Part shown: positions 25,801-51,290 of the stretch, in pieces
Numbering within the stretch: position 1 is the first letter of the stretch
How the letters are laid out: each line of letters begins with the position of its first letter
NCBI RefSeq assembly: GCF_009498275.1
Contig: NZ_CP045643.1
Location: forward strand, 6,076,001-6,140,000
DNA length: 64,000 bases
From: Streptomyces fagopyri
GTDB lineage: Bacteria; Actinomycetota; Actinomycetes; Streptomycetales; Streptomycetaceae
Reading direction: 5' to 3'
Notes under the pieces: generated by a model
The model's input: only the letters and a program-made list of their open reading frames with translations
Told to the model about the DNA's origin: nothing
Databases searched by the model: none
Program-made: the position numbers and the translations under genes

Positions 25801-27771
25801 ATGCCTGCCGAAGCCGCTGTGTCGGTGTTTCCACAGCTCGAAGCTCTGCTCCCGCATGTGCAGAAGCCGATCCAGTACGTCGGCGGGGAGCTCAACTCCA
25901 CGGTCAAGCCGTGGGAGGCCTGCGACGTCCGCTGGGCGCTGATGTACCCCGACGCCTACGAGGTCGGACTGCCCAACCAGGGCGTCATGATCCTCTACGA
26001 GGTCCTCAACGAGCGCGAGGGCGTCCTCGCCGAGCGCACCTACAGCGTCTGGCCGGACCTGGAGGAGCTGATGCGCGAGCACCGGGTCCCCCAGTTCACG
26101 GTGGACAGCCACCGCCCGGTGAAGGCCTTCGACGTGTTCGGGCTGTCCTTCTCCACGGAGCTGGGCTACACGAACATGCTGACGGCCCTGGACCTGGCCG
26201 GGATCCCCCTGGAGTCCAAGGACCGCACGCTCGACGACCCGATCGTGCTGGCCGGCGGTCACGCGGCCTTCAACCCCGAGCCCATCGCCGACTTCATCGA
26301 CGCGGCGATCATCGGTGACGGCGAGCAGGCCGTGCTCGACATGACCGAGATCATCCGGGCCTGGAAGGCGGAGGGCCGCCCGGGCGGCCGCGAGGAGGTC
26401 CTCCTCCGCCTGGCGAAGACGGGCAACGTCTACATCCCGGCGTTCTACGACGTCGAGTACCTCGCCGACGGCCGGATCGCCCGGGTCGTGCCCAACAGGT
26501 CGGGCGTCCCGTGGCGTGTGTCGAAGCACACGGTCATGGACCTCGACGAGTGGCCCTACCCCAAGCAGCCGCTGGTGCCCCTCGCCGAGACGGTCCACGA
26601 GCGGATGTCCGTGGAGATCTTCCGGGGTTGCACGCGCGGCTGCCGCTTCTGCCAGGCGGGCATGATCACCCGCCCGGTCCGTGAGCGTTCCATCACGGGC
26701 ATCGGCGACATGGTCGAGAAGGGTCTCAAGGCGACGGGTTTCGAGGAGGTGGGCCTGCTCTCGCTGTCCTCCGCGGACCACAGCGAGATCGGTGACCTCG
26801 CCAAGGGCCTGGCGGACCGGTACGAGGAGGACAAGATCGGCCTCTCCCTCCCCTCCACCCGCGTCGACGCCTTCAACGTGGACCTGGCGAACGAGCTGAC
26901 GCGCAACGGCCGCCGCTCGGGCCTGACCTTCGCCCCCGAGGGTGGCTCGGAGCGCATGCGCAAGGTCATCAACAAGATGGTCTCGGAGGAGGACCTGATC
27001 CGGACCGTCTCCACCGCCTACGGCAACGGCTGGCGCCAGGTGAAGCTGTACTTCATGTGCGGCCTGCCGACCGAGACGGACGAGGACGTCCTGCAGATCG
27101 CCGACATGGCGATGAACGTGATCGCCGAGGGTCGCAAGGTCTCCGGCCAGAACGACATCCGCTGCACGGTCTCGATCGGCGGCTTCGTCCCCAAGCCGCA
27201 CACGCCCTTCCAGTGGGCCCCGCAGCTCTCCGCCGAACAGACGGACGACCGCCTCGCGAAGCTCCGCGACAAGATCCGCGGCGACAAGAAGTACGGCCGC
27301 TCCATCGGCTTCCGCTACCACGACGGCAAGCCCGGCATCGTGGAGGGCCTGCTCTCCCGCGGTGACCGCCGCATCGGCTCGGTCATCCGCGCCGTCTACG
27401 AGGACGGCGGCCGCTTCGACGGCTGGCGCGAGCACTTCTCGTACGACCGCTGGATGGCCTGCGCCGAGAAGACCCTCCCCGCGCAGGGCGTGGACGTCGA
27501 CTGGTACACGACCCGCGAGCGCACCTACGAGGAGGTCCTCCCCTGGGACCACCTCGACTCCGGCCTCGACAAGGACTGGCTCTGGGAGGACTGGCAGGAC
27601 GCCCTCGACGAGACCGAGGTCGAGGACTGCCGCTGGACACCGTGCTTCGACTGCGGCGTCTGCCCTCAGATGGACACGGCCATACAAATCGGCCCGACCG
27701 GCAAGAAGTTGCTGCCTCTGACGGTCAAGAACGCTGCGCCGGCGCCCGCTTCGAGCGGTCACTCTCACTGA
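25801..27771 (+). CDS. TIGR03960-type B12-binding radical SAM protein
   Basis: The 656-aa protein begins at the ATG at 25801, preceded by gaaggttcgcgag; an upstream ATG at 25756 has no good RBS. An N-terminal B12-binding-like region (PDAYEVGLPNQGVMIL, GGHAAFNPEPIADF) precedes the radical SAM core with CTRGCRFC, the CxxxCxxC cluster ligands near residue 277. A C-terminal extension holds CFDCGVCPQ. The family is usually adjacent to and fused with DUF2344/TIGR03936; here that partner lies 27 kb away at 54564. The last ~35 codons lie within a 368-bp segment repeated downstream, so the C-terminal tail was probably supplied by an integrated element. Confidence 0.92.
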   Translation: MPAEAAVSVFPQLEALLPHVQKPIQYVGGELNSTVKPWEACDVRWALMYPDAYEVGLPNQGVMILYEVLNEREGVLAERTYSVWPDLEELMREHRVPQFTVDSHRPVKAFDVFGLSFSTELGYTNMLTALDLAGIPLESKDRTLDDPIVLAGGHAAFNPEPIADFIDAAIIGDGEQAVLDMTEIIRAWKAEGRPGGREEVLLRLAKTGNVYIPAFYDVEYLADGRIARVVPNRSGVPWRVSKHTVMDLDEWPYPKQPLVPLAETVHERMSVEIFRGCTRGCRFCQAGMITRPVRERSITGIGDMVEKGLKATGFEEVGLLSLSSADHSEIGDLAKGLADRYEEDKIGLSLPSTRVDAFNVDLANELTRNGRRSGLTFAPEGGSERMRKVINKMVSEEDLIRTVSTAYGNGWRQVKLYFMCGLPTETDEDVLQIADMAMNVIAEGRKVSGQNDIRCTVSIGGFVPKPHTPFQWAPQLSAEQTDDRLAKLRDKIRGDKKYGRSIGFRYHDGKPGIVEGLLSRGDRRIGSVIRAVYEDGGRFDGWREHFSYDRWMACAEKTLPAQGVDVDWYTTRERTYEEVLPWDHLDSGLDKDWLWEDWQDALDETEVEDCRWTPCFDCGVCPQMDTAIQIGPTGKKLLPLTVKNAAPAPASSGHSH

Positions 27772-27772
27772 C

Positions 27773-27958
27773 GTGAGCGGGGCACTCGATCGGGTGATTG
27801 AGGCATTGGCGGGGGCTAGCGAGGACGAGGTCGCCGCGGCGTTGGCTGCGGTAGGCACTTCGGGCCCTCGCCGCTCCGCGCCGGCAGCGCCCTCCCGGAC
27901 GCCGTTGCCGGGCCCTGGAGCTGCTGCGGGGATCGTCTCCGAGGTGGAGTGGGTCTAG
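27773..27958 (+). CDS. Small ORF carried in the repeat, unknown function
   Basis: The GTG at 27773, one base after the radical SAM stop, gives 61 aa: an acidic helix-like start (ALDRVIEALAGASEDEVAAALAAVG) followed by a Pro/Ser-rich tail ending SEVEWV. The same frame is open in copy B at 44176-44364 with mostly conservative changes (DRVVEALAGVGEGEV, ending SGVDWV), which supports it being translated. It may be a small coupled protein made with the radical SAM enzyme. I do not recognise it. Confidence 0.5.
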   Translation: MSGALDRVIEALAGASEDEVAAALAAVGTSGPRRSAPAAPSRTPLPGPGAAAGIVSEVEWV

Positions 27959-27998
27959 GGCAGGTTCGGCGCTGCCAAGCGGGACAGAGGAGCATCTG

Positions 27999-28029
27999 AG
28001 CCCCCTTCCTTGACTGGGAGGGGGCTCGT
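27999..28029 (+). terminator. Terminator inside repeat copy A
   Basis: Arms gagcccccttcc and gggagggggctc pair with one mismatch around ttgact. The equivalent hairpin is kept in copy B and, in altered form, in copy C. It ends the radical SAM/small-ORF transcript. Confidence 0.7.
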
Positions 28030-28034
28030 TGGCG

Positions 28035-29278: not shown

Positions 29279-29285
29279 GCCGCTC

Positions 29286-29293
29286 ACTATAGG
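29286..29293. promoter_or_regulatory. Shared palindromic -10 for divergent leaderless transcripts
   Basis: The octamer actatagg reads TATAGG toward the kinase ATG (29303) and TATAGT toward the opposite ATG (29278). Both starts lie within 10 bp of the hexamer, so both mRNAs would be leaderless or nearly so. No convincing -35 is present for either. Confidence 0.4.
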
Positions 29294-29302
29294 GTGTTCG
29301 CC

Positions 29303-30361
29303 ATGCTGGGACCTGTCGCTAGTCAAGTTGGTGATCGCATCAATGATCGATACCGAGTTCTCGCACTGTTGGGGGTGGGTGCCAACGGCGAGGTCTACCG
29401 TGTCAGTGATGATCATCTGGGTACCGAGGTGGCTTTGAAGTTGCTTAAACCCCAGCAGAATCAAGCAGCCACTTGGGATGAAGCGCAGACCCTTAAGCAT
29501 TTGAGCAGCGAGTTCCTGCTATCTGTGCTGAATGCAGACATTGTGGTTGGTTCTGATATTCGCTACATCACGACGCCGATTATGGATGGAGGTGACCTTG
29601 AGAATCACGCAGAATCATTTGGAGTTGAAGCAAAGGCGGCGGTCCGTTGGGGGCAGCAACTGGGTTATGGACTCGACCGGATGCATAAAGCAGGATTGTT
29701 GCATCGGGACGTGAAGCCAGGGAACGCATACCTAGATGGCGCGGGTGCCGTACTCCTTGGCGACATGGGGATGGCGGTGGCGATTGATTCTAACGGTCGT
29801 GCACCAGCCAATGGGACCCTGGCCACAGTTGCACCTGAAGTACTATCTATGGCTCCAGATGCGTGCTCGATTTCATCCGACGTCTATTCGCTTGCGGCCA
29901 CAGTTTTCTACCTCTTGTCGGGGCAGTACCCCACCGGTCCAAAAGGGGTAAGTTTGCTAGAGCGTAGGAATTTGATTATCGGCAGAAGGTTTCTTGATAT
30001 CCGCGAAATCGCACCGCAGGTACCATTGAGTCTGGCTCGAGTCGTCGAGAAGGGTCTATCCGGATCCCCGGAGGAGCGTCAAAGTACCGCTCGTGACTTT
30101 GCCAATGAATTGGCGTGCTGTGCGAGTCACCGACGCTCTTGGAGGAGAATTCTCCCACATGAGAATCATCAGGCGTGTTTTTCGGCAGACGCGACCGCTA
30201 CGGCCCAGCCGCTGAATCTGTGTGTAATTCCACTAAGTTCGACTCACGCCTCAATTGAAGTTAAGCTACTGACGGGGAGGAGGGTGAAGAAATATGAGCG
30301 TCACAGAATCTCTGTGAGTAAGCTCCCTTCCGTCTTGCGTAATATAATCAAAGAAATTTGA
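29303..30361 (+). CDS. Soluble Ser/Thr protein kinase (Hanks type)
   Basis: The ATG at 29303 gives 352 aa. Kinase motifs in order: Gly-rich loop LLGVGANGEVYRV (about residues 24-36), VALK Lys (about 51), HRDVKPGN catalytic loop (about 135), DMG in place of DFG (about 155), APE (about 178) and SDVYSLAATVFYLLSG. No membrane span or PASTA repeats occur, unlike PknB. A C-terminal region of about 80 residues ends in basic VKKYERHRISVSKL. Low GC and AT-ending codons mark it as acquired. It sits with the PRTase-like and RNase-H-like genes, suggesting a small signalling or defence module. Confidence 0.85.
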   Translation: MLGPVASQVGDRINDRYRVLALLGVGANGEVYRVSDDHLGTEVALKLLKPQQNQAATWDEAQTLKHLSSEFLLSVLNADIVVGSDIRYITTPIMDGGDLENHAESFGVEAKAAVRWGQQLGYGLDRMHKAGLLHRDVKPGNAYLDGAGAVLLGDMGMAVAIDSNGRAPANGTLATVAPEVLSMAPDACSISSDVYSLAATVFYLLSGQYPTGPKGVSLLERRNLIIGRRFLDIREIAPQVPLSLARVVEKGLSGSPEERQSTARDFANELACCASHRRSWRRILPHENHQACFSADATATAQPLNLCVIPLSSTHASIEVKLLTGRRVKKYERHRISVSKLPSVLRNIIKEI

Positions 30362-30489
30362 GAGCGCGGTTTTTTCAATCACCTTGCTCGATCTCGCGCT
30401 TTCCCGGGCAGGTCCACAGGATGCCCGACATGCCTAAAGCCTACGAGGCCAAGATCACTCACCCCGAAGCGATTTTCAGCCCTAATCGG

Positions 30490-32720: not shown

Positions 32721-32723
32721 CAC

Positions 32724-34100
32724 CTACTCGTCGTCGTCCAGGCGGGCGAGGGCGTCGCGTACCTGGTCGTTGAAGGCGGCCACGATGGGGTTCGCCGCGT
32801 GGATGGTCACTTCGGTCTGGAAGTCGGACACGTAGCGCTGGAAGCGGGAGGACTGGAGGGTGTCTCCGCCGTCCACGGCCAGGCTGGCTGTCGTGACGGC
32901 GGCTTCCAGTTCACCGTTCAGCAGGTGGCTTTGGGCGAGCACCATGCGGCAGAACCCCAGGGTGCGGGCGTATTTCGGGTCGGTTTCATCGACCGCGCGT
33001 TGTGCGGCTTCGACGGACTCGCGGCGCATCTTGAGGTCGCGGAAGCAGTGGCAGAGCTCGCCCATGAGTTCCGCAGAGTCGAAGTAGCCCAGCCATGCGG
33101 GGTCGTCGGTGGTGTCGGCGTGCTCGAAGTGGCGTTCTGCTTCGTTCATCGCACGGCCGGCGCCGGTCGGGTCCCCTCCGTTGGCCAGTGCGCGGGCTTC
33201 CATGGCTGAGTAGTTCGCCATGGCCCGTGGGGTGGCCCGGCCCTTGGCGCCTTCGACGGCGGCGCGGCCGAGTTGGATCGCTTGGGCGTGGTTGCCGAGG
33301 TAGTTGGCCTGGTGGCTGAGGTTGCCGAGGATGCGGGCGCCGAACATGCGGTCGTCGACGACCTGGGACAGGCGCAGTGTCGATGTCAGGTAGCGGTGGG
33401 CGAGCCGCTGGTTCCCGGTGTCGTACGCGGTCCATGCGAGTAGCTGGGAGACCTCGGCGGCGGCCCCGAATAACGCGGTGCCGACCTTCTCGCTGTAGCT
33501 GGCGTTCAGGAGAGGGAGGACTTCGTGGCGGAAGTAGTGGCGCAGTGCCCTGTGGCCGTGGCCGCCGCCGTATTTGAAGTCGAGCTGCATGAACATGCTG
33601 GCCGCATCTCGGATCGCGCGTACGTCGCGCATGCCGATGCGTTGGTGAGCGGGCCTGTCGGCCTCGACGCCATCCGGGCGCGCGATCATCCATGACAGGA
33701 CGGCTGAGTTGAGATCGTTGTCCGCGATCACCAGGTCGTCAGGGGTGGCGGCTTCGGCTCGCTGGTCGGCGAGTCCGTCCAGCATGGACAGTACGTCGGG
33801 CACGCTGGTGGGATACCCGATCGGCTGTGGAGTGGCCGGCCGCGCAGCGTGGTCGATGAATCCGAGATCGGCGGGCGAGACGCGGCGGCCGAGCTTGGCG
33901 CCGAGTACGTCGGCCATGATGGCCGCTGTCGGGGGCTGGATGCCCGCACCGTCGCGCCATCGTTGTACGGCGACGTGCGTCGTTCCGAGACTCGTTCCGT
34001 GCTGAGCGGCGGCGTCCTGCATCCGCCTGGCGAGTCCCTTGTTCGAGACGTTCGCCTCGTCCATGACCGCGATCAACTGTGCGTTTGGCTCTCGGCTCAT
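32724..34100 (-). CDS. XRE-family regulator with TPR-like C-terminal region
   Basis: The start at the ATG complementary to 34098-34100 gives 458 aa. Residues 5-75 form an XRE helix-turn-helix (ANVSNKGLARRMQDAA, GTTHVAVQRWRDG, ILGAKLG-type helix). The remainder is helical with repeat-like segments (LGNLSHQANYLGNHAQAIQLGRAAV, MNEAERHFEHADT) typical of TPR regulators of actinomycetes. The divergent intergenic region contains several GTTCAC/GTGAAC boxes that could be its operator. Its ligand is unknown. Confidence 0.8.
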   Translation of the reverse strand: MSREPNAQLIAVMDEANVSNKGLARRMQDAAAQHGTSLGTTHVAVQRWRDGAGIQPPTAAIMADVLGAKLGRRVSPADLGFIDHAARPATPQPIGYPTSVPDVLSMLDGLADQRAEAATPDDLVIADNDLNSAVLSWMIARPDGVEADRPAHQRIGMRDVRAIRDAASMFMQLDFKYGGGHGHRALRHYFRHEVLPLLNASYSEKVGTALFGAAAEVSQLLAWTAYDTGNQRLAHRYLTSTLRLSQVVDDRMFGARILGNLSHQANYLGNHAQAIQLGRAAVEGAKGRATPRAMANYSAMEARALANGGDPTGAGRAMNEAERHFEHADTTDDPAWLGYFDSAELMGELCHCFRDLKMRRESVEAAQRAVDETDPKYARTLGFCRMVLAQSHLLNGELEAAVTTASLAVDGGDTLQSSRFQRYVSDFQTEVTIHAANPIVAAFNDQVRDALARLDDDE

Positions 34101-34132
34101 GCTCCCCTGCCAACCCGAGAATGACAGCGAGT

Positions 34133-34252
34133 GTTCATCGTGACACAGGCCTATGACATTGGGGGGTTCATCGGTGAACCCCCGCTGCCTTTGCAGGTGT
34201 TCACGTGAACCCCCTGGTGAACGCTCCCGGCTGAGCGGCTGGCGCCGTTCAC
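34133..34252. promoter_or_regulatory. Cluster of GTTCAC/GTGAAC operator-like boxes
   Basis: Between the divergent starts at 34100 and 34309 lie a 9-bp inverted repeat gggggttca-tcgg-tgaaccccc (34162-34183), the perfect palindrome gttcacgtgaac (34199-34210), a half-site gtgaac (34217) and a half-site gttcac (34247), plus gttca at about 34133. This spacing suits cooperative binding by a helix-turn-helix regulator, presumably the XRE protein. Confidence 0.55.
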
Positions 34253-34308
34253 TGTTCGGCACGGAGTGATGGGCGGCAAGAGCCCGTCGACAGTCGGCAG
34301 GGGACGCG

Positions 34309-34848
34309 ATGGATGCTCGGCAGAGCAAACGCGTAGCGAACACCCCGCGGGCGATCTCGCTGCGTGAAGCGGCGCAAGATCCCTCGTCGGGTCACTTCCG
34401 GGCGCTGACGCTCTTCGACGAGTCCTCAAGCACGGTGTTCGCCGCGCGCACCATGGTGAGCGGCTGCCTCCAGGACTGGGGGTTCGGCGACATGGTCGAC
34501 GATGCCCGGCTCGTCGTCTCGGAGCTGGTCGGCAACGTCGTGCACCACGCGGTGCCGGACGAGTGCCTGACGCGGCCTGGTGCCGCGCGTCGGATTGATG
34601 TGCTGGTCAAGGCGTGGCCCGGGTGGCTGTTCATCGGTGTCGCCGATGAGGACTCCACCCCGCCTGATCTGCCGGTGGGCGAGTTCGTCTCCCCGCAGTT
34701 GGCCGGTGACTTCGCGGAGGCGCTGTTGCCTGACCGCGGGCGCGGGCTGCTGATCGTTCAGCGGCTGGTTGACGCGGTGTGGTGGTCGCCGAAGAGTCTC
34801 GGTGGCAAGACCGTGTGGTGCCGCTTCGACCTCGACGGTACGACCTAG
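34309..34848 (+). CDS. HATPase_c (RsbW-like) ATP-binding regulatory protein
   Basis: The 179-aa protein has the GHKL N-box VSELVGNVVHHA (about residues 70-80), a G1-like VADEDSTPP and a G2-like GRGLLIVQRLVD. This is the stand-alone anti-sigma-factor-kinase fold common in streptomycetes. Genes of this type are regularly divergent from XRE regulators (the whiJ/abaA-like arrangement), as here. Whether it binds a sigma factor is unknown. Confidence 0.75.
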   Translation: MDARQSKRVANTPRAISLREAAQDPSSGHFRALTLFDESSSTVFAARTMVSGCLQDWGFGDMVDDARLVVSELVGNVVHHAVPDECLTRPGAARRIDVLVKAWPGWLFIGVADEDSTPPDLPVGEFVSPQLAGDFAEALLPDRGRGLLIVQRLVDAVWWSPKSLGGKTVWCRFDLDGTT

Positions 34849-36757: not shown

Positions 36758-36824
36758 CGTAACTCGTAAGGACAAGTGACGTCTGAATATGTCAGATGTT
36801 CCGACTGGCCAAGGAGGCCAAGCA

Positions 36825-37175
36825 ATGCAGTCCATTCCCGTGGACACAGCACGACTGGGCGTACTGCGGTGCGCCATCACACCCGAAGCGAAGATCAGCA
36901 ACTTCGAGACACAGGAGGTCAAGAAGGACCGCGACGGCAACACCGTATACACCGTCGCCGTCACGGTGCGCCAGGACGGACGACGCATCTCCGTCATCGA
37001 GATCGCGGTCGCCGGTGAGCCGAAGGGCATCGAGGAAGGGCAGATACTCAAGGTCACCGGACTGACCGCATTCGCCTGGGCCATGGGCGACCGGCACGGA
37101 ATCAGCTTCCGCGCCGATGCCATCACCCCCGTACACGGCACCCCCGCACCGGCCAAGAACAGCGGTGCCGCGTGA
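36825..37175 (+). CDS. Conserved-type AICE small protein, function unknown
   Basis: The ATG at 36825 with a strong aaggagg RBS gives 116 aa. The protein looks beta-rich and barrel-like (VLRCAITPEAKISNF, TVAVTVRQDGRRISVIEIAVAG, ILKVTGLTAFAW), compatible with an OB-like fold. Its stop overlaps the start of the TraSA-like gene, indicating coupled expression. Small proteins at this position are common in streptomycete integrative elements, perhaps DNA-binding accessory factors. Confidence 0.65.
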   Translation: MQSIPVDTARLGVLRCAITPEAKISNFETQEVKKDRDGNTVYTVAVTVRQDGRRISVIEIAVAGEPKGIEEGQILKVTGLTAFAWAMGDRHGISFRADAITPVHGTPAPAKNSGAA

Positions 37176-38843: not shown

Positions 38844-40324
38844 ATGGACGACAGCGCGCCACCCACCATCACCCGTGCCGCTTCGGCGGCCCACCCCGGA
38901 AGGCCACCACCATCACCCCGGACTTCACCCCGGCTGACAGGCGCGCCGCCCTCGACCGCGCGGCGCGCCTGCGTCAGCTCTCAGAAGCAGATCGGGATGC
39001 CATCCGCATCGCCCAAGACCCGAAGTTTCCGCGCTGGCTGGAGCAGGTAACCGCTACCGGCGGCTGCGCCCGCCCCGTCCACCTCTCTGGCTCCACCACC
39101 ACCCTCGATGGCGGGACCGGGGAGATCCTCCAGCACTACGACACTCGTGACGAACCCGGGGAACGCCTCCTCGTCCGCTGCCGCAACCGACGCGCAACCG
39201 TCTGCCCGGCCTGCTCCCGCCTTCACGCCGGAGACACCTTCCACCTGGTCCGCGCCGGCCTCCTCGGCGGCAAGAACGTTCCCGAATCGGTCCGCCACCG
39301 GCCTCGGCTCTTCGTTACCCTCACCGCCCCATCCTTCGGCCCCGTCCACCGCGCTGGCGAGCAGTGCCGCCCCCGCCGCGATGGCGGAACCTGCGAGCAC
39401 GGACGCCCCACCGGCTGCAGGACGGTGCACGCCTCAGATGCGCCGGTCGTCGGCCAACCGCTATGCCCCGACTGCTACGACTACACGGCCCACGTGCTGT
39501 GGCACGCGCACGCCTCCAAGCTGTGGGACCGATTCGTCATCGACGTCCGCCGCCGTCTCGCCTCCTCCGCGGGCCTCGTACAGTCCCACTTCGCCCGGCA
39601 CGCCCGGCTGTCCTTCGCCCGCGTTGCCGAGTACCAGAAACGTGCGGCCGTACATGTGCACGCCGTCGTACGCCTCGACGGCCCCGACGGGTCGGAGGAC
39701 GACCCTCCCGATTGGGGCACTGCGGAATTGCTCAGCGGTGCTGTGCGCGCATCTGCCTTCCGGGTCGTGGTCCGCACCCCCCACAGCCCCGCCGTGGGTG
39801 AGATGACGCTGCGTTGGGGCGCCCAAGTCGATGCGCGGTCGCTGCTGCCAGACGGTGAAGGTCCGGATGATGACGCGGTCGCGGCGTACGTGGCGAAGTA
39901 CGTCACCAAAGGTGCGACCGACACAGGGGCCGGCACCGACTACCCGCTTGCGACCGAGGGTGACATTGCGTCCGCACCCGTGAACGACCACGTGCGCAGC
40001 CTGATGCGGATCTGTTGGAGTCTGGGCGGCCTCCCCGAATTTGAACCCCTCCGTCTCCGGGCGTGGGCGCACACTCTCGGCTACCGCGGACACATCCTCA
40101 CCAAGTCCCGCGCCTACTCAACGACGTACGGAGTGCTGCGTGCCGAACGCGCTCGTCACGCGGGCTACGTCGACTTGCCCGACGCGATCACCGAGCGACA
40201 GTGGCGATACGTCGGCTCCGGCCACACACCTGGCGCGGCTCATATCGCCGCTGGCATTGCCGATGACCTCGCCGAGTCTCGATGCCTGGCTTTGGAGGCG
40301 CAACGAGAGAGGGAACGGCACTGA
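38844..40324 (+). pseudogene. repSA: RepSA-like HUH replication initiator, frameshifted near the N-terminus
   Basis: An ATG at 38844 behind a strong RBS (gcaaggagtgatcccc) starts MDDSAPPTITRAASAA. After about 16 codons the protein continues in the frame one base back (KATTITPDFTPADRR, LRQLSEADRDAIRIAQ). That frame has no ATG, GTG or TTG between the stop at 38804 and the GTG at 39425. A one-base loss near 38885-38897 (gcggcccaccccgg) would explain this. The body shows Cys pairs (CPACSRLHAG, CPDCYDY), the HUH motif VHVHAVVRL and a candidate catalytic Tyr in VAAYVAKYVTKG. It is intact otherwise, about 490 codons. Translation from 39425 would give a 299-aa piece keeping HUH and Tyr. Confidence 0.75.
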
Positions 40325-44027: not shown

Positions 44028-44175
44028 GACCAGCACAGTAGCCGTTTTAGGCACGTTGGCATATGGCCGCAGATGGACACCCACATCCAGATCGGCCCGA
44101 CCGGCAAGAAGCTGCTGCCGCTGACGGTCAAGAACGCTGCGCCGGCGCCGGCCGCGAGCGGTCACGCGCACTGAG

Positions 44176-44364
44176 GTGAGGAGCCTGGTGCTCGATCGGG
44201 TGGTTGAGGCGTTGGCGGGGGTTGGCGAGGGTGAGGTCGTCGCGGTGGTGGCTGCGGCAGGCACTTCTGGCCCTCGCTGCTCCGCGCCGGCGGTGCCCAC
44301 CCGGACGCCGTTGCCGCGCCCCGGAGCGTCTTCGGCGATCGTCTCCGGGGTGGACTGGGTGTAG
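44176..44364 (+). CDS. Second copy of the small repeat-borne ORF
   Basis: The GTG at 44176 gives 62 aa, aligned along its length with the ORF at 27773-27958: DRVVEALAG, AAGTSGPRCSAPA, TRTPLPRPGA and a final W-V. Conservation of frame and length across two copies suggests a translated product. In copy B it has lost the complete gene upstream, so it may not be expressed. Confidence 0.4.
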   Translation: MRSLVLDRVVEALAGVGEGEVVAVVAAAGTSGPRCSAPAVPTRTPLPRPGASSAIVSGVDWV

Positions 44365-44402
44365 GGCGGGTTCGCCGCTGCCAAGGGGAACAGCGACCAT
44401 CC

Positions 44403-44432
44403 GAGCCCCCTTCCTCGACCGGGAGGGGGCTT
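44403..44432 (+). terminator. Terminator inside repeat copy B
   Basis: Arms gagcccccttcc and gggagggggctt form the same hairpin as in copy A. Confidence 0.6.
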
Positions 44433-44439
44433 GTTGGCG

Positions 44440-44808
44440 CTTCACGACCTGCGGGTCCGTGCGCCTCGGCCTCCCTGAACGGCACCGAGTCCCAACTGTC
44501 TCCACCACCGGTTCACGGCGCCGCACACGCGCGGCGCTCGACCGGTCCGCGCGCCACCGCTCCTGCCCCACGCCCCGGACTTCCCGGTCGAGCGCCGCGC
44601 CAGGGGGGGCGCCCGTCGGCCACGGCGACCGGGTGACGGACAGCAGGTCTCTTCGGGTTGCCCTCACCGACCGAACGACGGAGTGGCCCGCGTGGCTCCC
44701 TGTGCCGGAAATCATCTAGGCACATTCTCGGCACTGTCGCGCATCCGTGTTGCGCGCCCCCGCAGGTCGTATGCCTGGAGACCGTCGATCCAAAAGAGGG
44801 ATGCCGTC
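44440..44808. other. Spacer of the first downstream cassette
   Basis: No gene is supported in these 369 bp. ORFs on both strands here have atypical composition. The stretch must contain the promoter of the beta-helix gene. Confidence 0.35.
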
Positions 44809-45858
44809 TTGCCCGCACTGCGAGCCCTTGCCGGTGCCGCCGCGATTGCCGCGGCCGCTACCGCCGTCACCGCTGTCCCCGCCGTTGCCCACAGCCCTGA
44901 GCATGTGCGGTGCAAGGCGAGTTCTCTTGTCGCCGCCATCGCCAGAGCCAACGCCCGAGGTTTTGGTGACCTCCGTCTCGCCAGAGGCTGCGTCTACGAC
45001 TTCACGGCAGCCGCCTCGGGCGATGACGCGACACCTCCCGTCACGGTGCCCGTCACCATCGACGGACACGGCGCCACGCTCCGGCGCGGTACCACCGCGA
45101 ACCTCTTCCGCCTCCTCGATGTCGCAGCCGGTGGGCGGGTGACACTCAGCGATCTCAAGATCGAGAACGGCGAGGTGACCGGCGACGGTGGGGGCGTCCT
45201 CGTCCAGGACCGGGGGACACTCCACGCGACATCTGTCCTCGTCAAAGGGAACACCGCCGGTAACAACGGTGGCGGCATCGAGAACCTGGGAACCCTGAGG
45301 CTCGTTCGATCCAGGGTTGCCGACAACGAGGCCGCGGGTTCCGGTGGGGGGATTTCCAGCGAGGGCTCCACCTCCGTCATCTCCACCTCGATCGAGGGCA
45401 ACACGGCCGGCAGATTTTTTGGCGGAGGGGTGTTCAACGACGACAGGATCACCATCAGCCGCAGTTCCATCACCGGCAACAGGGTTACGGCAGGTGACGG
45501 CGGCGGCCTCTGGAACGACTCCCGGATGACCGTCGACGACACCACGATCGTCGACAACACCGCCAGCGACCACGGAGGAGGCGTCACCAACGCGCAGCTC
45601 GGAAGAGCCACCTTCAACCGGAGCACCATCAAGAGGAACACCGCCCTTCTGCTGGCCGGCGGTGTCTACAACGTCAACCCCGGCTCCCACCTCGTCCTCG
45701 ACCACAGCTCCGTCACCAAGAACAACGCGGGCAATGCCCCTGGAGGCGTGTTCGACGGGACCGGAAGCGTCGTGGTGAACAAACGCTCCCCCATCACGGG
45801 AAACCGTCCTACCAACTGCGTCGGCAGCCCGTCTCCCGTGGCCGGTTGCACCGGCTGA
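44809..45858 (+). CDS. Secreted right-handed beta-helix protein
   Basis: A TTG at 44809, with aaagaggg upstream, gives 349 aa. Residues 1-27 form a Sec signal peptide (ALRALAGAAAIAAAATAVTAVPAVAHS). The mature part has many imperfect turns of a parallel beta-helix, with recurring NTAGNNGGGIEN, SGGGISSE, FGGGVFND, GDGGGLWN and HGGGVTN. This is the polymorphic right-handed parallel beta-helix fold seen in polysaccharide-active and adhesin-like proteins. No catalytic residues can be assigned. It is the only gene of its cassette. Confidence 0.8.
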   Translation: MPALRALAGAAAIAAAATAVTAVPAVAHSPEHVRCKASSLVAAIARANARGFGDLRLARGCVYDFTAAASGDDATPPVTVPVTIDGHGATLRRGTTANLFRLLDVAAGGRVTLSDLKIENGEVTGDGGGVLVQDRGTLHATSVLVKGNTAGNNGGGIENLGTLRLVRSRVADNEAAGSGGGISSEGSTSVISTSIEGNTAGRFFGGGVFNDDRITISRSSITGNRVTAGDGGGLWNDSRMTVDDTTIVDNTASDHGGGVTNAQLGRATFNRSTIKRNTALLLAGGVYNVNPGSHLVLDHSSVTKNNAGNAPGGVFDGTGSVVVNKRSPITGNRPTNCVGSPSPVAGCTG

Positions 45859-45954
45859 CCAGTCCGCATCCCGCCGCGGGCCCTGGGCGGCATACCGCCG
45901 GAACCCGGTCCGTCGAGTCAGGGCGCCGAGTGACGCGGCCGTCGCGGGTACCCG

Positions 45955-46110
45955 AAGGTGGATTCGGTCCTACGAATCGGCCCGGTTGCCGAGCAGTTGC
46001 CGCCTCTGACGGGCAGGAACGCGACGCCGGCGCCGAGCGGTCACGCGTACTGACGTGAGCGAGGCGCTCCGTACGAGCCCTGAGGCCCCTCCCGATCGGG
46101 AGGGGCCTCA
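45955..46110 (+). repeat. Attachment-type repeat, decayed copy C
   Basis: Recognisable parts are gaatcggcccgg, ctctgacgggcaggaacgc, gcgccggcgccgagcggtcacgcgtactgacgtgagc and a terminal hairpin. Most of the small ORF is deleted, so the copy is only about 155 bp. It separates the beta-helix cassette from the arsenic cassette. Confidence 0.6.
46081..46110. terminator. Perfect palindromic terminator in copy C
   Basis: The 30-bp palindrome has arms tgaggcccctccc and gggaggggcctca around gatc. It can serve both strands, including the convergent arsM transcript. Confidence 0.75.
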
Positions 46111-46221: not shown

Positions 46222-47025
46222 TCAGCACGTATCGGCCGACCCGGTCGTCCGGGATGTCTTGGCCCCGCTCTGGGGCTTGGTGGCGTGGACGACGGCGGAG
46301 TGCATGCCGTCGGCCACTGAGTGGGTGGGGGTGATCCCGACGTCCATGAACCCCGCCGCCTCGAGGCCTTCCCGGTACTCGGTGAAGGACAGGGCGCCCG
46401 CGACGCAACCGACGTGGTCGCCGCGCCCGGCGCGCTGGGCGGGGGTGAGGGTGTCGTCCGCGACCACGTCCGAGACGCCGATGCGGCCGCCGGGCGTCAG
46501 GACACGGAACGTCTCGGCGAACACCGCCGCCTTGTCTGTCGACAGGTTGATCACGCAGTTGGAGATCACCACGTCGATGCTGCCCGCGGGGAGCGGGATG
46601 GCCTCGATGGTGCCCTTGAGGAACTCGACGTTCGTCGCGCCCGCCTTCTTGGCGTTGGCGAGGGCGAGTTGGAGCATCTCGTCAGTCATGTCGAGGCCGT
46701 AGGCCCTCCCCGCGGGGCCGACGCGGCGGGCGGAGAGCAGGACGTCGATGCCGCCACCCGAGCCGAGGTCGAGGACGCGTTCGCCTTCGCGGAGATCGGC
46801 CACGGCGGTCGGGTTGCCGCAGCCCAGTGAGGCGGCGACGGCTCCGGCGGGCAGGGCGTCGCGCTCGTCGGCCGCGTAGAGGGTGGCGCCGAAGTGCTCC
46901 TCCACCTCGCCCGGATGCGGCCCGCGACACGCGGTGCCGCCCTCGGTGACCTTCACGGCCGCGGCGGCGTACCGCCGGCGGACGGTCTCGCGCAGAGTCT
47001 CAGCGGGCTGCTCACTCATCGTCAC
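46222..47025 (-). CDS. arsM: Arsenite S-adenosylmethionine methyltransferase
   Basis: The 267-aa protein has the SAM motif [20 protein letters not shown] (about residues 84-103), GLDMTDEML and the ArsM-type cysteines in [16 protein letters not shown] and [10 protein letters not shown]. ArsM methylates As(III) to volatile or less toxic species. Three conserved cysteines are seen, fitting the As(III)-binding set. It is divergent from arsR and lies in the cassette between repeat copies C and D. Confidence 0.88.
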
Positions 47026-47067
47026 TCACTCCTGGATGACGGGGCACGGCAGGTCCTGGAAGAGCTT

Positions 47068-47120
47068 GTATTGATGTTTGTTGATGCAACCTTGCGCCTT
47101 GGATCGAAAAACGTCAACAT
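47068..47120. promoter_or_regulatory. ArsR operator/promoter region
   Basis: TTGATG repeats (ttgatgtttgttgatgcaac, 47071-47090) and a gtcaa box at 47113 lie between the divergent arsM and arsR starts. Direct/inverted TTGA-type motifs are typical of ArsR sites. A CATAGA hexamer 8 bp before the arsR ATG would give a nearly leaderless mRNA. Confidence 0.4.
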
Positions 47121-47126
47121 AGACGC

Positions 47127-47504
47127 ATGTCGAAACAAAGACTTGAGGTGACGGGCCAGGAGGTGGACGGCGCCTGCTGTCAGGGGCTGGCCTCGGCCCC
47201 GCTGTCCGCGGATCGGGCCGTCGAACTGGCGAAGGTGTTCAAGGCGCTGGGTGACCCGGTGCGCCTGCGGCTGCTCTCGATGGTCGCCTCGCGGGAGGGC
47301 GGCGAGGTGTGCGTCTGCGAGCTGACGCCCGCGTTCGAGTTGTCGCAACCGACGATCTCCCACCATCTCAAGCTGCTCCGGCAGGCCGGACTCATCGACT
47401 GTGAGCGGAGGGGGACCTGGGTCTACTACTGGGTGCTCCCCGGCGTACTGGACCGGCTGGGCGCGTTCCTGACCACCCCTGAGCCCGTGGGGGTGACCGT
47501 GTGA
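47127..47504 (+). CDS. arsR: ArsR-family arsenic-responsive repressor
   Basis: The ATG at 47127 gives 125 aa. A winged helix (FKALGDPVRLRLLSMV, FELSQPTISHHLKLLRQAGLIDCERRG, about residues 33-95) contains the metal-site segment VCVCELTP, matching the ELCVCDL As(III)-binding motif. It should release the divergent operator on binding arsenite. The stop overlaps the next gene by 4 bp. Confidence 0.92.
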   Translation: MSKQRLEVTGQEVDGACCQGLASAPLSADRAVELAKVFKALGDPVRLRLLSMVASREGGEVCVCELTPAFELSQPTISHHLKLLRQAGLIDCERRGTWVYYWVLPGVLDRLGAFLTTPEPVGVTV

Positions 47505-48274
47505 GCGCGTCGCTGGGACAGCGTGCCGTGGCCGAGCTGGTGGGGACCGCCGTGCTGGTCGCGGTGGTGGTCGGGTCCGGGATCCAGGCGACGGAGCTGT
47601 CGCGGGACGTCGGCGTGCAGTTGCTCGCGAACTCCCTCGCCACCGTCTTCGGCCTGGCCGTGCTGATCACGCTGTTCGGGCCGGTCTCCGGGGCCCACTT
47701 CAACCCGGTCGTCACCCTGGCCGTCTGGTTCACCGGACGGAAGAACGGTGACGGGATGACCGCACGCGAAGCAGCCGTGTACGTCCTCGCCCACATCGTG
47801 GGCGCGATCGGCGGCGCGGTCCTGGCTGACGCGATGTTCGCCGAACCGCTGGTGAAGTGGTCCACGCACGACCGCTCCGGCGGCCATCTGTGGCTGGGCG
47901 AGATCGTGGCCACCGCCGGGCTGATCCTGCTGGTCCTCGGCCTGGGCCGGACCGGTCGCGCCCACCTCGCATCAGCCGCGGTGGCGTCCTACGTCGGGGC
48001 CGCGTACTGGTTCACGTCCTCGACGTCGTTCGCGAACCCGGCGGTGACCATCGGTCGGGCCTTCACCGACACGTTCGCGGGAATCGCCCCCGCCTCCGTC
48101 GCCCCGTTCATCGCCGCGCAACTGGTCGGTGCCGCTGTCGGCCTGGGGCTGTCGGCGGTGGTGTTCGGCCGAACGGCGCCCGCTGCGACAGGTGCCGTCG
48201 TCCCTCACGGTGGGACCGAACCCGCTCCGTCCGCTCCCCGAGCCCGCCTCTCCGCAGAAAGACACCTGCCATGA
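47501..48274 (+). CDS. Aquaporin (MIP channel) in arsenic operon
   Basis: The GTG at 47501 gives 257 aa with six membrane spans. The two pore half-helices carry HFNPVVTLA (NPV, about residue 68) and FANPAVTIG (NPA, about 180). In Sinorhizobium an aquaporin (AqpS) replaces the arsenite pump and lets arsenite made by ArsC leave down its gradient. The same logic fits here, as no arsB or acr3 is present. It is coupled to arsR and arsC by 4-bp overlaps. Confidence 0.88.
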   Translation: MSASLGQRAVAELVGTAVLVAVVVGSGIQATELSRDVGVQLLANSLATVFGLAVLITLFGPVSGAHFNPVVTLAVWFTGRKNGDGMTAREAAVYVLAHIVGAIGGAVLADAMFAEPLVKWSTHDRSGGHLWLGEIVATAGLILLVLGLGRTGRAHLASAAVASYVGAAYWFTSSTSFANPAVTIGRAFTDTFAGIAPASVAPFIAAQLVGAAVGLGLSAVVFGRTAPAATGAVVPHGGTEPAPSAPRARLSAERHLP

Positions 48275-48681
48275 GCACTGCCACCCCGCGTCCGTCCGTG
48301 CTGTTCGTCTGCGTCCACAACGCCGGGCGGTCCCAGATGGCCGCCGCGTTCCTCACGCACCTCGCGGGCGACAGGGTCGAAGTCCGCTCGGCCGGCTCCG
48401 CTCCCGCCGACACGGTCAATCCGGCGGTCGTCGACGCGATGAGGGAAGTCGGCATCGACATCTCCGCGGAGACCCCGAAGGTGCTGACCGAGGAAACGGT
48501 GCGGGCATCCGACGTCGTGATCACCATGGGGTGCGGTGACACCTGCCCGGTCTTCCCCGGCAAGCGGTACCTCGACTGGCGGCTCGACGACCCGGCGGGG
48601 CAGGGCGTCGACGCGGTGCGGCCGATCCGCGATGAGATCGCACAGCGCATCCGTGGCTTGCTGGCCGATCTGGATGGCTGA
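48271..48681 (+). CDS. arsC: Arsenate reductase, LMW-phosphatase fold
   Basis: The ATG at 48271 gives 136 aa. The P-loop VCVHNAGRSQMA (about residues 12-23) provides the nucleophilic Cys of the CX5R loop. MGCGDTCPVFPGKRYLDWRLDDP carries the resolving-type cysteines seen in actinobacterial ArsC. It reduces arsenate to arsenite, with mycothiol or thioredoxin as the likely reductant. Last gene of the arsR operon. Confidence 0.92.
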   Translation: MSTATPRPSVLFVCVHNAGRSQMAAAFLTHLAGDRVEVRSAGSAPADTVNPAVVDAMREVGIDISAETPKVLTEETVRASDVVITMGCGDTCPVFPGKRYLDWRLDDPAGQGVDAVRPIRDEIAQRIRGLLADLDG

Positions 48682-48718
48682 CCCGGTTGTCGGGCCGTGT
48701 GACGCGGCCCGTGTCCGC

Positions 48719-49072
48719 GGATGGACACCCACGTCCCGTCCGGCCCGACGGGCAGGAAGCTGCCGCTGCCGGTCAAGAACGCGGCGCCGGCTCCCGCTTC
48801 GCGTGGTCACGCGCACCGACGTGAGCGGGGCGCGCGACCGATCGGGTGGTCGAGGCTCTGGCGGGGTGAGCGAGGGGGAGGTGGCGGCTGCGTCGGCTGC
48901 GGTAGGCACGTCGGGCCCTCGCCGCCCCTCCGCGCCGGCGGCGTCCCCGGCGCGGTGTGGGCGGCGCCCTCTCGGACGCCGTTGCCGAGCCGTGGAGCCG
49001 TTGCGGGGATCGTCCAGGAGGCGGAGTGGATCCGAGGGCAGTTCGGCGCCGCCAGGGGGAACCGGGCCCCCA
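48719..49072 (+). repeat. Attachment-type repeat, copy D
   Basis: From ggatggacacccac the segment follows copies A and B through gccggtcaagaacgcggcgcc, the small-ORF region (gcggtaggcacgtcgggccctcgccg) and ggcggagtggatccgagggcag. The small ORF is broken by a stop and a frame change, so the copy is decayed. It closes the arsenic cassette on the right. Confidence 0.7.
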
Positions 49073-49124
49073 CCGTGTGACGCACACCACGGGAACCCGC
49101 CCCGCCGTCTGGACAAGGACTGAC

Positions 49125-49763
49125 GTGGACTACTCATTGCACACCCGGATACGGGCAGGCGACCCGGAGGCGTTCCGCGAGCTCTTCCGTGACCACGCCC
49201 GACTGGTCCACCGGCACGCGGTGCGCGTGACCGGGGACTGGACCGTCGCCGAGGACGTCGTCTCCCTGACCTTCTTGGAGGCGTGGCGGCTGCGCGCCAG
49301 ACTGCGGGACGAGGGCGACAGCCCGCGCCCCTGGCTGATGGGCATCGCAGTGAACGTACTGCGCAACACCACCCGTGCCGCGCGCCGTCATCAGCGGGCC
49401 CTGCAACGTCTGCCGGCCAAGGAGACGGTCCCGGACTTCGCCGACGAACTCGTCGGCCGCATAGCCGATGCCGACCAGTTGGCCGCCGCCCAGCGGGCGC
49501 TGAAGAAGCTGAATCGCAGTGAGCGCGAGGTCTTCACGCTCTGTGTGTGGTCCGGGCTCGGCTACGCGGAGGCGGCGGCAGCACTCGGCATCCCGGTCGG
49601 CACCGTGCGCTCGCGCCTGTCCCGCGCCCGCGGACGGCTGAGCAAGCTGGCCGAGGAAGAACTGAGGAAACGCGGGGAACCACCGTCGGGCGACGGACAA
49701 GTACAGGGCGGCCGCACCTCTGCGGCCCGGTCGCACGAGTCGTACGAGGAGGGGTCCGAATGA
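49125..49763 (+). CDS. ECF-type RNA polymerase sigma factor
   Basis: The GTG at 49125 gives 212 aa. Sigma-2 (AFRELFRDHARLVHRHAVRVTGDWTVAEDVVSLTFLEAW, about residues 12-50) and sigma-4 (REVFTLCVWSGLGYAEAAAALGIPVGTVRSRLSRARG, about 128-170) are present. A Gly/Ser-rich tail follows. The next gene overlaps by 4 bp (ATGA) and encodes a membrane protein of the CU044_5270 type, a common partner of this sigma group that may act as anti-sigma. It lies in the cassette between copies D and E. Confidence 0.85.
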   Translation: MDYSLHTRIRAGDPEAFRELFRDHARLVHRHAVRVTGDWTVAEDVVSLTFLEAWRLRARLRDEGDSPRPWLMGIAVNVLRNTTRAARRHQRALQRLPAKETVPDFADELVGRIADADQLAAAQRALKKLNRSEREVFTLCVWSGLGYAEAAAALGIPVGTVRSRLSRARGRLSKLAEEELRKRGEPPSGDGQVQGGRTSAARSHESYEEGSE

Positions 49764-50824
49764 TCCGCAAGAAGCCGCGGCGCGAGGAGTCGCCGGACTA
49801 CGCGGAGCTGGCGCGTTTGCTGCCGGCACCCGGAGACCCGCACCTGTCGCTCGACCGTCACCTGCTTCTCGAGGAGCACCTGATGAACGAGTTCCGGTCC
49901 ACCGCACCCGCCCCCGCGTCGTCCCGCCGCCCGGCCCGCCGTGTCCTGCTGATCGGTGTCCCGGTCACCGCCGCCGCCCTGGCCGGCGCGTTCGCCTTCA
50001 CCGCGCTGACCAATTCCGCGGGCGGCGACCCGGCCGTGGCCACCCCGCCCCCGGTCGAAGCGCCGGTCGTCCGCATCGAGCCCGGCAGCACCGCCCAACT
50101 GGCCTCCACCGTCGAGCACATCGCCGCCGCCGCGTCGGCCCGCGAGACGCCCGAACCCGGCCCGGGCCAGTACATCTACATCAAGAGCAAGGTCTCCTAC
50201 GTCACCGTCTCGCACACCGACAAAGACGACTCCAAGGCATGGGTCCAGCCCCTGCACATCCGTGAGGTCTGGAGTTCTCCCGACGGCAAGCAGGGCTGGC
50301 TTGACGAGCCCGGCTACCAGCCCAAGGGCGGCAGCACCCTCGACAGCGACGTCGAGCCCAGCTGGGGCGCCGCCTCCTACGACTACCTCAAGACGCTGCC
50401 CACCGACCCGGACGCCCTGCTGAAGAGGATCTACAAGGAGACCAAGGGTCAGGGGAACTCCCCGGACCAGCAGGCATTCACCACGGTCGGCGACCTGCTC
50501 AACGAGGAGATCGCGCCGGCGAAGCTGAACGCGGCGCTGTACCGGGCCGCGGCCAAGATCCCCGGGGTTGTGGTGGTGGAGCATGCCCAGGATGCCGCGG
50601 GTCGCGAGGGCATCGCCCTGGCCCACGTCGACCAGCGGAGCGGCGACCGCACCGAGTGGATCTTCGACCGCGGGACGTACACCTATCTCGGCAGCCGCGC
50701 TGTCCAGGTCAAGCAGGCCGACGGCGTCAAGCCCGGCACGGTCATCAACTGGACCGCCGTGCTGGAGCGGGCCGTTGTGGACGCCCAGAAGCAGCGTCCC
50801 GGCGCGCAAGGCACCCGTGCGTGA
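49760..50824 (+). CDS. CU044_5270-type single-span membrane protein
   Basis: The ATG at 49760, overlapping the sigma factor stop, gives 354 aa. About 60 cytoplasmic residues precede one membrane span (about 60-80, VLLIGVPVTAAALAGAFAFTAL). The large extracellular domain has QYIYIKSKVSYVTVS, REVWSSPDGKQGW and a C-terminal NWTAVLERAVVDAQK. This pattern is that of proteins encoded after ECF sigma factors in actinomycetes. A zinc-finger anti-sigma motif is not seen, so a regulatory role is inferred from coupling only. Confidence 0.7.
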   Translation: MIRKKPRREESPDYAELARLLPAPGDPHLSLDRHLLLEEHLMNEFRSTAPAPASSRRPARRVLLIGVPVTAAALAGAFAFTALTNSAGGDPAVATPPPVEAPVVRIEPGSTAQLASTVEHIAAAASARETPEPGPGQYIYIKSKVSYVTVSHTDKDDSKAWVQPLHIREVWSSPDGKQGWLDEPGYQPKGGSTLDSDVEPSWGAASYDYLKTLPTDPDALLKRIYKETKGQGNSPDQQAFTTVGDLLNEEIAPAKLNAALYRAAAKIPGVVVVEHAQDAAGREGIALAHVDQRSGDRTEWIFDRGTYTYLGSRAVQVKQADGVKPGTVINWTAVLERAVVDAQKQRPGAQGTRA

Positions 50825-51071
50825 GAACGCGATCGCCCCGCTGAGCAGTGCGTGCGGTGCCACGCGATCACATCGAGCGGCGGTTGGTGGCTTGACCTGA
50901 ACACAGGTGAGCTGCCGCGCCCGCTCACCGCGTCGACACCCGCTGGAATTCGACTGGGGTGCTTTTCAGGGGGCCCTTCAAGGGCGATTGCCCGGCCAGG
51001 GGAAAGCCGTGGTCGTCCCCGGGTACTACCAGCCGTACTGGGGGAGTCGGCCCGCCGGAGGACTGCGGCGG
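50825..51071. other. Spacer before copy E
   Basis: No gene is supported. The stretch contains gggcccttcaagggc, a short dyad. Confidence 0.35.
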
Positions 51072-51290
51072 CAGATGGGAACGCGCATGCAAATCGACCC
51101 CACGGAAAGGAAGTTGCTTCCACTGACGGTCAACAGCGGGGCGCCGGCACCTGCTTCGAACGGTCACGTGCACTGAGGCGAGCCTGGACCTCTGTCGGGG
51201 GATCGAGGTGTTGGCAGGAGCGAGGGAGGACGAGGCCGCCGCGGCGTTGGCCGCGGTAGGCACTTCGAACCCTTGCTTCTCCGCGCCGAC
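51072..51290 (+). repeat. Attachment-type repeat, copy E (right end of island)
   Basis: cagatgggaacgcgcatgcaaatcgaccccac continues as ttccactgacggtcaacagcggggcgccggcacctgcttcgaacggtcac, with the following small-ORF region (gaggccgccgcggcgttggccgcggtaggcacttcg). The end of the ORF and the terminator are missing. As the outermost copy, it may be the oldest, originally native, gene end. Confidence 0.65.

Follow-up and report, generated by a model that had tools for sequence, protein, structure and literature searches.

A composite island behind a radical SAM gene of Streptomyces fagopyri, probably built by serial serine-integrase insertions

Introduction

How does a stack of unrelated gene cassettes come to lie behind one conserved enzyme gene when a single cassette among them carries a recombinase? 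The question is raised by a 64,000-nt stretch of the 8.88-Mb chromosome of Streptomyces fagopyri (assembly GCF_009498275.1, contig NZ_CP045643.1, positions 6,076,001 to 6,140,000; hereafter the window), for which an earlier reading made without database searches (the sequence-only reading) had described five copies of the 3' end of a B12-binding radical SAM gene and four cassettes between them. The host gene belongs to the TIGR03960 family (708 bits, NCBIfam cut-off 462), which was matched in 391 of 392 Streptomyces genomes. Mobile DNA appears to have inserted repeatedly at the end of this gene, each insertion bringing a new gene ending and an excision-control gene. We lean towards reading the locus as a composite island formed by serial insertion of serine-integrase elements of the phiJoe/SCO2603 type, in which the integrase-free cassettes are cargo left behind after excision.

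Results

Five gene tails delimit four cassettes

A BLAST search of the whole window with its positions 26500-28000, a query that ends with the first copy (tail A), returned tail B (84% identity over 349 nt, E = 1e-93), tail D (74%, 5e-64), tail E (74%, 5e-49) and tail C (75% over 132 nt, 5e-21), against 5e-9 for the best match outside the tails, confirming that five copies of the gene end (A to E) cut 27.66-51.35 kb into four cassettes. A profile seeded by A, B, D and E and then by all matches, which favours the window tails because it was trained partly on them, scored the five tails at 2e-86 to 1e-24, the next place in the window at 2.4 and the best place in the reversed window at 0.063; tail A itself matched its own genome at the five tail places and at one further 33-nt stretch. 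On these E-values and profile scores we rejected chance likeness of GC-rich coding DNA, the outcome that the sequence-only reading had named as fatal for tails C, D and E. Tandem duplication was also rejected, since the cargo of the cassettes shows no kinship, in agreement with the unrelated content first described. The left edge of the similarity between tails is sharp and falls at a dinucleotide core, CC in A to D and CG in E, and the right edge is ragged (Table 1); the true starts lie about 10 nt to the left of those first given, although the five places hold.

To the right of the core lie roughly 35 C-terminal codons of the host gene, and in tails A and B an open reading frame (ORF) of 61-62 codons begins 1 nt past the host stop. 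Both ORFs are homologous to gp52, the recombination directionality factor (RDF) of phage phiJoe (tblastn, E = 3e-5 and 1e-3), and a profile built from 26 such element ORFs, A and B included, found phiJoe gp52 at 1.8e-5, its Lannister homologue at 1.5e-7 and a remnant in tail E at 1e-9, and picked up the RDF of tail D in two frames. The ORF is intact in A and B, split over two frames in D and partial in E, and in C only its start remains, ahead of a hairpin. The repeat thus carries an RDF gene beyond the gene 3' end recognised at first, and the notion that its right part was a copied 3' untranslated region was dropped once this part was shown to code for the RDF. Each repeat is built like the left end of an integrase element, with the attachment (att) core, the host C-terminus, the RDF gene in intact or decayed form and, in A, B and C, a terminator-like hairpin (GAGCCCCCT..AGGGGGCTC in tail A).

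The C-terminus coded by tail B is nearly the same as that of A, the two tails differing by five silent and two replacement changes over 22 codons. Tails C and E are in frame up to a stop and have drifted, and tail D has lost one codon and the stop; relative to A, the replacement and silent differences number 14/2 in C, 10/5 in E and 19/8 in D, the last being overstated by a count made without a gap after the lost codon. Such replacement-rich drift in C, D and E is as expected of old copies presumably free of selection. No native RDF-free tail was found to the right of tail E.

Cassette 1 and its insertion site

The insertion site of the island is the known attB hotspot of phiJoe and SCO2603: according to Fogg et al. 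(2017, PMC5311408), phiJoe has its attB close to the end of a SCO2606-like B12 radical SAM gene, where elements of varying content are reported in several streptomycetes, in agreement with the link to phiJoe put forward in the sequence-only reading. The distance from the att core to the end of the host stop codon is 106 nt for cassette 1, compared with 74 bp given there for the corresponding distance.

Cassette 1 is, as judged from its genes, an actinomycete integrative and conjugative element (AICE) with a phiJoe-like serine integrase. It holds a pSAM2-type replication protein, an FtsK-type transfer protein, an integrase and att sites, and it shares with phiJoe/SCO2603-type elements the integrase, the target gene, a gp52-type RDF at the opposite end and matched attL and attR half-sites. 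Its integrase is 64% identical to that of phiJoe over 526 aa and finds 54 phage records at 60-80%. Stretches of its backbone (73-85% DNA identity) recur at the same locus in five other genomes (G267, G189, G101, G275 and G011).

The claim that only the first cassette has a recombinase was borne out: Pfam and NCBIfam scans of the main ORFs and tblastn with four serine integrases found none in cassettes 2 to 4. These match the layout of cis-mobilizable elements (CIMEs) in being flanked by putative att sites and having neither an integrase nor conjugation genes. For cassettes 2 and 4, the sampled locus stretches of the 58 genomes introduced below contained no DNA match of at least 150 nt.

Half-site spacing at the junctions

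The junctions were typed by spacing around the core. The phiJoe attP (record KX815338) was aligned by eye to the tails at the central dinucleotide, CC on this strand, and shows TGT at -21..-19 and ACA at +19..+21 relative to the core; with offsets fixed after the alignment had been viewed, we called a right half P' (ACA at +19..+21) or B' (ACA at +15..+17), and a left half P (TGT or TTT at -21..-19) or B (TGT at -17..-15). For a Listeria integrase, attP and attB have been described as differing by 5 bp in the placement of the zinc-domain motif (Rutherford et al. 2013, PMC3783163). The P, P' and B' types were checked on a second set of named genomes, which shares two genomes (G003 and G275) with the first.

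The gene junction was P' in all seven loci with an integrase in the first cassette and in 13 of 14 named integrase loci, one of which (L130) repeats G003; in two named loci (L129 and L135) an integrase-free cassette comes first. By comparison, the 29 single-tail loci without a full RDF gave one P', ten B-like and 18 junctions of neither type. Beside the integrase, the left half was P in 8 of 10 cases and in 23 of 27 of the named set, and the right half was B-like in 7 of 10 and 14 of 27 and P' in none. The P' arm lies within the coding sequence (GGCCATACAAAT in tail A). In five of seven loci it uses the isoleucine codon ATA, which is absent from the gene body (0 of 29 isoleucine codons) and occurs once each in rne (1 of 25) and in the right-flank TIGR03936 gene (1 of 5).

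By this spacing we read A as a putative attL (B|P') and B as a putative attR (P|B'), where for A the left half of the gene itself, which carries no TGT, is taken as B; so typed, cassette 1 looks excisable. It is also read as probably the youngest of the stack because of this matched att pair, its intact integrase and RDF, and the few differences between tails A and B. Tail B would then have been the end of the host gene before cassette 1 arrived. Of the other tails in the window, D has a B-type left half (TGT at -17..-15).

The locus in other Streptomyces genomes

For the comparison, 15-20 kb downstream of the gene were taken from 58 genomes (9 kb in one and 40 kb in two), with the TIGR03936 gene as right-flank marker; most stretches were 20 kb, so that long islands are under-counted. 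The core sample comprised 38 of the first 48 gene matches, ten having been passed over, some for short contigs and the rest with no reason given; eight further genomes came from the same list and 12 were chosen for strong tail matches, among them G201 (five tails), one of the ten passed over. At least two core-bearing tails were present in 14 of the 38 genomes and at least three in four, and of the remainder 22 had a single tail without a full RDF and two a single tail with one. With the eight added genomes the counts were 15 and 4 of 46, and with the tail-selected ones 24 and 7 of 58. Stacking of tails at the TIGR03960 gene thus recurs across Streptomyces. In two loci (L149 and L154) the integrase is followed within a few hundred bases by a short tail lacking the RDF and by the TIGR03936 gene, with no further cassette to the right; in L114 (G146) a tail with RDF is separated from the TIGR03936 gene by only about 500 bp and resembles a solo left end.

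The third-position identity of tails was 0.74-0.78 in all four gene-divergence bins below 0.95 (30 loci), which shows, at the level of sequence, tail divergence decoupled from that of the gene body; this indirectly sustains the earlier claim that each integration exchanges the C-terminal tail of the host enzyme.

Cassettes bounded by a tail on each side number 40, the four of the window included, and one more in G189 spans two stretches. Ten of these 41 have an integrase, truncated in G011 and interrupted by an in-frame stop in G242, and 31 have none. The integrase-free cassettes are 0.8 to 9.2 kb long (median 2.5 kb), and among the proteins that they encode are Mrr-TerD, NNH1-NACHT, caspase, pentapeptide, P450 and S1 proteins; PADLOC assigned four of 73 cargo proteins to type IV restriction and one to caspase. 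One single-gene cargo recurs, a 685-aa protein that combines an Mrr catalytic domain with a TerD domain (G207, at L098:766-2823; G252, G220, G101, L129 and L139). The second cassette of L084 (G252) encodes an 875-aa NNH1-NACHT protein, has no integrase and ends on the right with an integrase-type P arm.

The integrase family of cassette 1 (E up to 1e-60) was found in 11 of 36 genomes, at the locus in all but G234. A further 14 of the 36 have integrase-free cassettes at the locus and no integrase of this family, an observation that favours a rival explanation: that these cassettes are mobile circles of their own, made of tail, RDF and cargo and moved in trans by the integrase of an AICE or a phiJoe-like phage, as a CIME or satellite would be. 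The sharp att edges speak for it as well. So does the constraint on RDF ORFs, with a pooled ratio of nonsynonymous to synonymous substitution rates of 0.49 for 20 ORFs without an integrase and 0.40 for six with one; 16 of 20 compared RDFs adjoin the gene, however, and the constraint may therefore reflect recent arrival. The Mrr-TerD gene, matched in 16 of the 36 genomes, is at the locus in seven, at different ranks, and arsenic genes homologous to 46222-48681 occur in the same interval in six genomes (G110, G286, G193, G011, G201 and G255): in G110 they lie between two tails and next to the gene, compared with the third cassette in the window, and elsewhere they are right of the last tail or inverted. 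This variation in rank is again what mobile circles would give. We nevertheless consider this explanation unlikely, and the right ends described next count against it.

Right ends of the integrase-free cassettes

Typing the right ends of all 31 integrase-free cassettes gave 11 B-type, two P-type and 18 of neither type, with little similarity among them beyond about -20. T stands at -17 in 20 of the 31 and at -15 in 20, and exact TGT at -17..-15 in 11 (chance about 0.8% each, the motif having been picked with the alignment in view); TG is also frequent at -3..-2 (22 and 27 of 31). This spacing is B-type, and combined with a B' tail such a junction is predicted to be attB-like. Mobile circles fit this poorly: as the typed ends are mostly B-type, a circle would carry b|P' or b|B' (b being the half-site behind the cargo) and not attP.

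The junctions fall 32-33 nt past the Mrr-TerD stop in G207, G252, G101 and L129, 22 nt past the S1 stop in G084 and 33 nt past the arsenic genes of the window. In G252, an S1 relative that has no tail behind it matches at 14 of the 22 positions before the core and at 6 of the next 18, and integrase-bearing L139 shares with L129 19 of 26 nt after Mrr-TerD and then 1 of 7 before the core. Both cargo families are also found between a tail and an integrase, Mrr-TerD in L139 (tail with RDF) and the S1 gene in L145. Since the typed ones are mostly B-type half-sites, we read the typeable right ends as probable scars of element excision and not as separate integrase-bearing insertions.

The same ends bear on simple decay, in which complete integrase elements were stacked and their integrases lost by random deletion. 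The decayed tails and RDFs of C, D and E and the broken integrases of G011 and G242 agree with decay; yet random deletions would not stop at the next core, and remnants or a P arm would be expected where only 2 of 31 right ends are P-type. In integrase-free cassettes tblastn found no integrase remnant, and in those of 12 genomes there was no PF00239 match (E up to 1e-10). Decay as the sole cause is already disfavoured and seems to us highly improbable.

Proposed origin of the stack

In the serial-insertion origin that we favour, an element would enter by attP x attB recombination, exchanging about the last 35 host codons and keeping the host gene whole. The RDF, presumably translated by read-through from the host gene, would assist the integrase in later excision. 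In that step attR would be joined not to attL but to a pseudo-attB (b) located behind the cargo; the departing circle would contain the integrase module, the cargo would remain, and the scar b|B' would form a fresh attB-like landing site, so that repeated rounds could yield a stack of integrase-free cargo cassettes. The sharp left edge at the core with a ragged right edge, the P'/P/B' pattern around the integrase, the B-type right ends, the cargo shared with integrase elements, the homology of the RDF to phage gp52 and the lack of integrase remnants in the searches described above all support this origin.

Several observations weigh against it. The scar step is inferred from sequence. The B-type offset, like the others, was fixed with the alignment in view, and the P/B offset is 4 bp here as opposed to 5 bp in the Listeria integrase. 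More than half of the integrase-free right ends fit neither half-site type, as do the left halves of tails C and E in the window, E having the CG core besides, and some b junctions precede P' tails, which requires another insertion. Cassettes derived from integrase elements should have P' left ends, yet the 20 gene junctions with a full RDF and no integrase in the cassette comprise five P', six B and nine of neither type; such mixed left ends do not fit the scar model well unless tails have since been exchanged. The decoupling of tail and gene divergence is seen also in loci without an RDF, and decay of the tails does not always increase with their distance from the gene (G189). Mrr-TerD genes lie away from the locus too in 9 of the 16 genomes that carry them. 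In several genomes the arsenic genes lie beyond the last recognised tail, on its right side, and adjoin no tail, and cassette 3 may for this reason be an old resident of the locus.

The mixed left-end types could be accounted for by homologous recombination, in which the 100-380 bp tail would pair with its counterpart on a circle or in chromosomal DNA, enlarging the stack and duplicating the tail around new cargo. The tails are long enough, and in G255 and G117 the first and second are identical over 66 nt. This route leaves unexplained both the B-type half-sites left of the core and the P'/B' alternation around integrase elements, and its first tail-bearing circle still requires an integrase event; as the source of stack growth it is, in our judgement, quite improbable.

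The serial-insertion origin admits an extension that we put forward tentatively and hold to be somewhat doubtful, a cargo ratchet in which the integrase excises its own module at the pseudo-attB, strands the cargo and rebuilds the landing pad, the scar being perhaps a better attB than the host site. With each round one more cargo without an integrase would be stranded, be it arsenic resistance, Mrr-TerD restriction, NACHT, caspase-type or other genes, and a resident RDF would push an incoming phiJoe-type integrase from integration towards excision.

Other features of the window

The remaining genes are listed in Table 1. The ArsC-like domain of cassette 3 matched the NCBIfam arsenate reductase at 2e-25, under the cut-off. 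The AICE gene at 31806-32720 has a weak likeness to phosphotransferases and homoserine kinases, far below cut-offs, and recurs in the AICEs of G101 and G267.

Table 1. Features of the island and its flanks in the window (assignments predicted from sequence).
Feature	Position	Strand	Evidence and remarks
Host gene, TIGR03960 family B12-binding radical SAM protein (SCO2606-like)	25687..27771	+	start codon uncertain
Tail A, read as attL of cassette 1	27656..28034	+	core CC 27664-27665, P' arm, host stop 27769-27771, RDF gene, terminator hairpin; right end approximate
RDF gene of tail A (gp52 homologue)	27773..27958	+	61 aa, GTG start 1 nt after host stop
Protein kinase domain gene, cassette 1 cargo	29294..30361	+	Pfam Pkinase 3.9e-29
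Transcriptional regulator of AICE	32724..34343	-	PHROG 10886, 1e-95
SCO3933 family regulatory protein (AICE)	36789..37175	+	NCBIfam NF051478 119 bits, cut-off 80
FtsK/SpoIIIE-type transfer protein of AICE	37172..38476	+	Pfam PF01580 6e-25
RepSA replication initiator (pSAM2 type)	39425..40324	+	Pfam PF20199 1.2e-93
Serine integrase, 539 aa	42408..44027	-	phrog_95 2.6e-89; start 39 nt from att core
Tail B, read as attR of cassette 1 and left end of cassette 2	44059..44439	+	P arm left of core CC 44067-44068, B' arm right; intact RDF ORF 44176-44364, terminator; right end approximate
Cassette 2 cargo, repeat-rich protein, looks secreted	44683..45858	+	real start downstream; no family match
Tail C	45944..46072	+	core CC 45952-45953, drifted gene tail, RDF deleted down to start, terminator kept; right end approximate
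Cassette 3, arsenite methyltransferase (ArsM)	46222..47025	-	NCBIfam NF008823 288 bits, cut-off 263
Cassette 3, ArsR/SmtB family regulator	47127..47504	+	NCBIfam NF033788 93.9 bits, cut-off 55
Cassette 3, aquaporin-family channel	47501..48274	+	Pfam MIP 1.7e-22
Cassette 3, ArsC-like arsenate reductase domain	48298..48681	+	in ORF 47857-48681; Pfam LMWPc 4.8e-22
Tail D	48704..49062	+	core CC 48715-48716, B-type half-site left of core, gene tail without stop, RDF in two frames; right end approximate
Cassette 4, extracytoplasmic function (ECF)-type sigma factor	48957..49763	+	NCBIfam TIGR02937 81.6 bits, cut-off 42.9
Cassette 4, CU044_5270 family protein	49757..50824	+	NCBIfam NF038083 247 bits, cut-off 100
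Tail E	51061..51348	+	core CG 51069-51070, drifted gene tail, partial RDF; last copy found; right end approximate
Chromosomal right flank, TIGR03936 radical SAM-associated protein gene	54606..55382	+	followed by rne (55491)

Discussion

The site, the integrase family, the AICE class and accretion as such are already known. Our literature search, which did not cover Fig. S2 of PMC5311408 and left subscription journals mostly outside its scope, turned up no account of stacking at this site, of integrase-free cassettes that bear an RDF, of a P' arm disguised as coding sequence or of excision scars.

What was known as a phage integration site is thereby seen as a recurrent cargo locus with a partly readable history, in which half-site spacing separates many junctions into attL, attR and candidate scars. 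The origin of integrase-free cargo modules beside serine-integrase elements becomes testable, as does the question of whether an RDF behind the host gene governs later insertions. As integrases of the phiJoe type are cloning tools, attB-like scars would affect where vectors land. Some integrase-free cassettes at the locus carry defence-type genes (Mrr-TerD, NACHT and caspase domain), and if the ratchet were true, streptomycetes would gather defence and resistance cassettes at one gene.

Composite staphylococcal cassette chromosome (SCC) islands are likewise made by a serine recombinase at a conserved gene whose 3' end is restored, and hold stacked cargo with and without a recombinase. The present island shares with them the serine recombinase, the restored gene end and the stacking, so that the SCC-type layout proposed in the sequence-only reading, in an actinomycete and at a B12/radical SAM gene, is upheld; its recombinase is of the phiJoe type and not Ccr, the repeat includes an RDF gene, and host and site differ. 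Membership in SCC was rejected, with 39.6 bits for CcrC and 30.1 for CcrB against cut-offs of 900 and TIGR03960 instead of rlmH as the target.

Closer relatives are the phiJoe/SCO2603-type elements, with variable cargo of up to 40 kb (Fogg et al. 2017, PMC5311408), which have in common with this island the target gene, a related integrase, a gp52-type RDF at the opposite end, a GG/CC core and variable cargo; in the consulted parts of that report they are described singly, unlike the serial stack, the RDF-bearing integrase-free cassettes and the coding-disguised P' arm seen here. Among 144 AICEs, 19 had serine recombinases, and tandem AICEs are mentioned (Ghinet et al. 2011, PMC3218068). Cassette 1 resembles these in RepSA, the FtsK-type transfer protein and the serine integrase; as far as that survey could be compared, it differs in targeting a radical SAM gene and in being followed by integrase-free cassettes that share its left-end module. 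For Streptomyces pathogenicity islands, modules with att sites at their ends are described as accreting next to an integrative and conjugative element, and one such module is termed a CIME (PMC8369830). The layout here is similar; those islands use, in the portion consulted, other sites (aviX1, an 8-bp palindrome), whereas the typed right ends here are mostly B-type half-sites. Finally, in the element PLE1 of Vibrio cholerae the large serine recombinase and the RDF come from different elements (PMC6002521), and in what was consulted of that account it appears as the mirror image of this island: PLE holds the integrase and takes its RDF from a phage, whereas the cassettes here hold the RDF and have no integrase.

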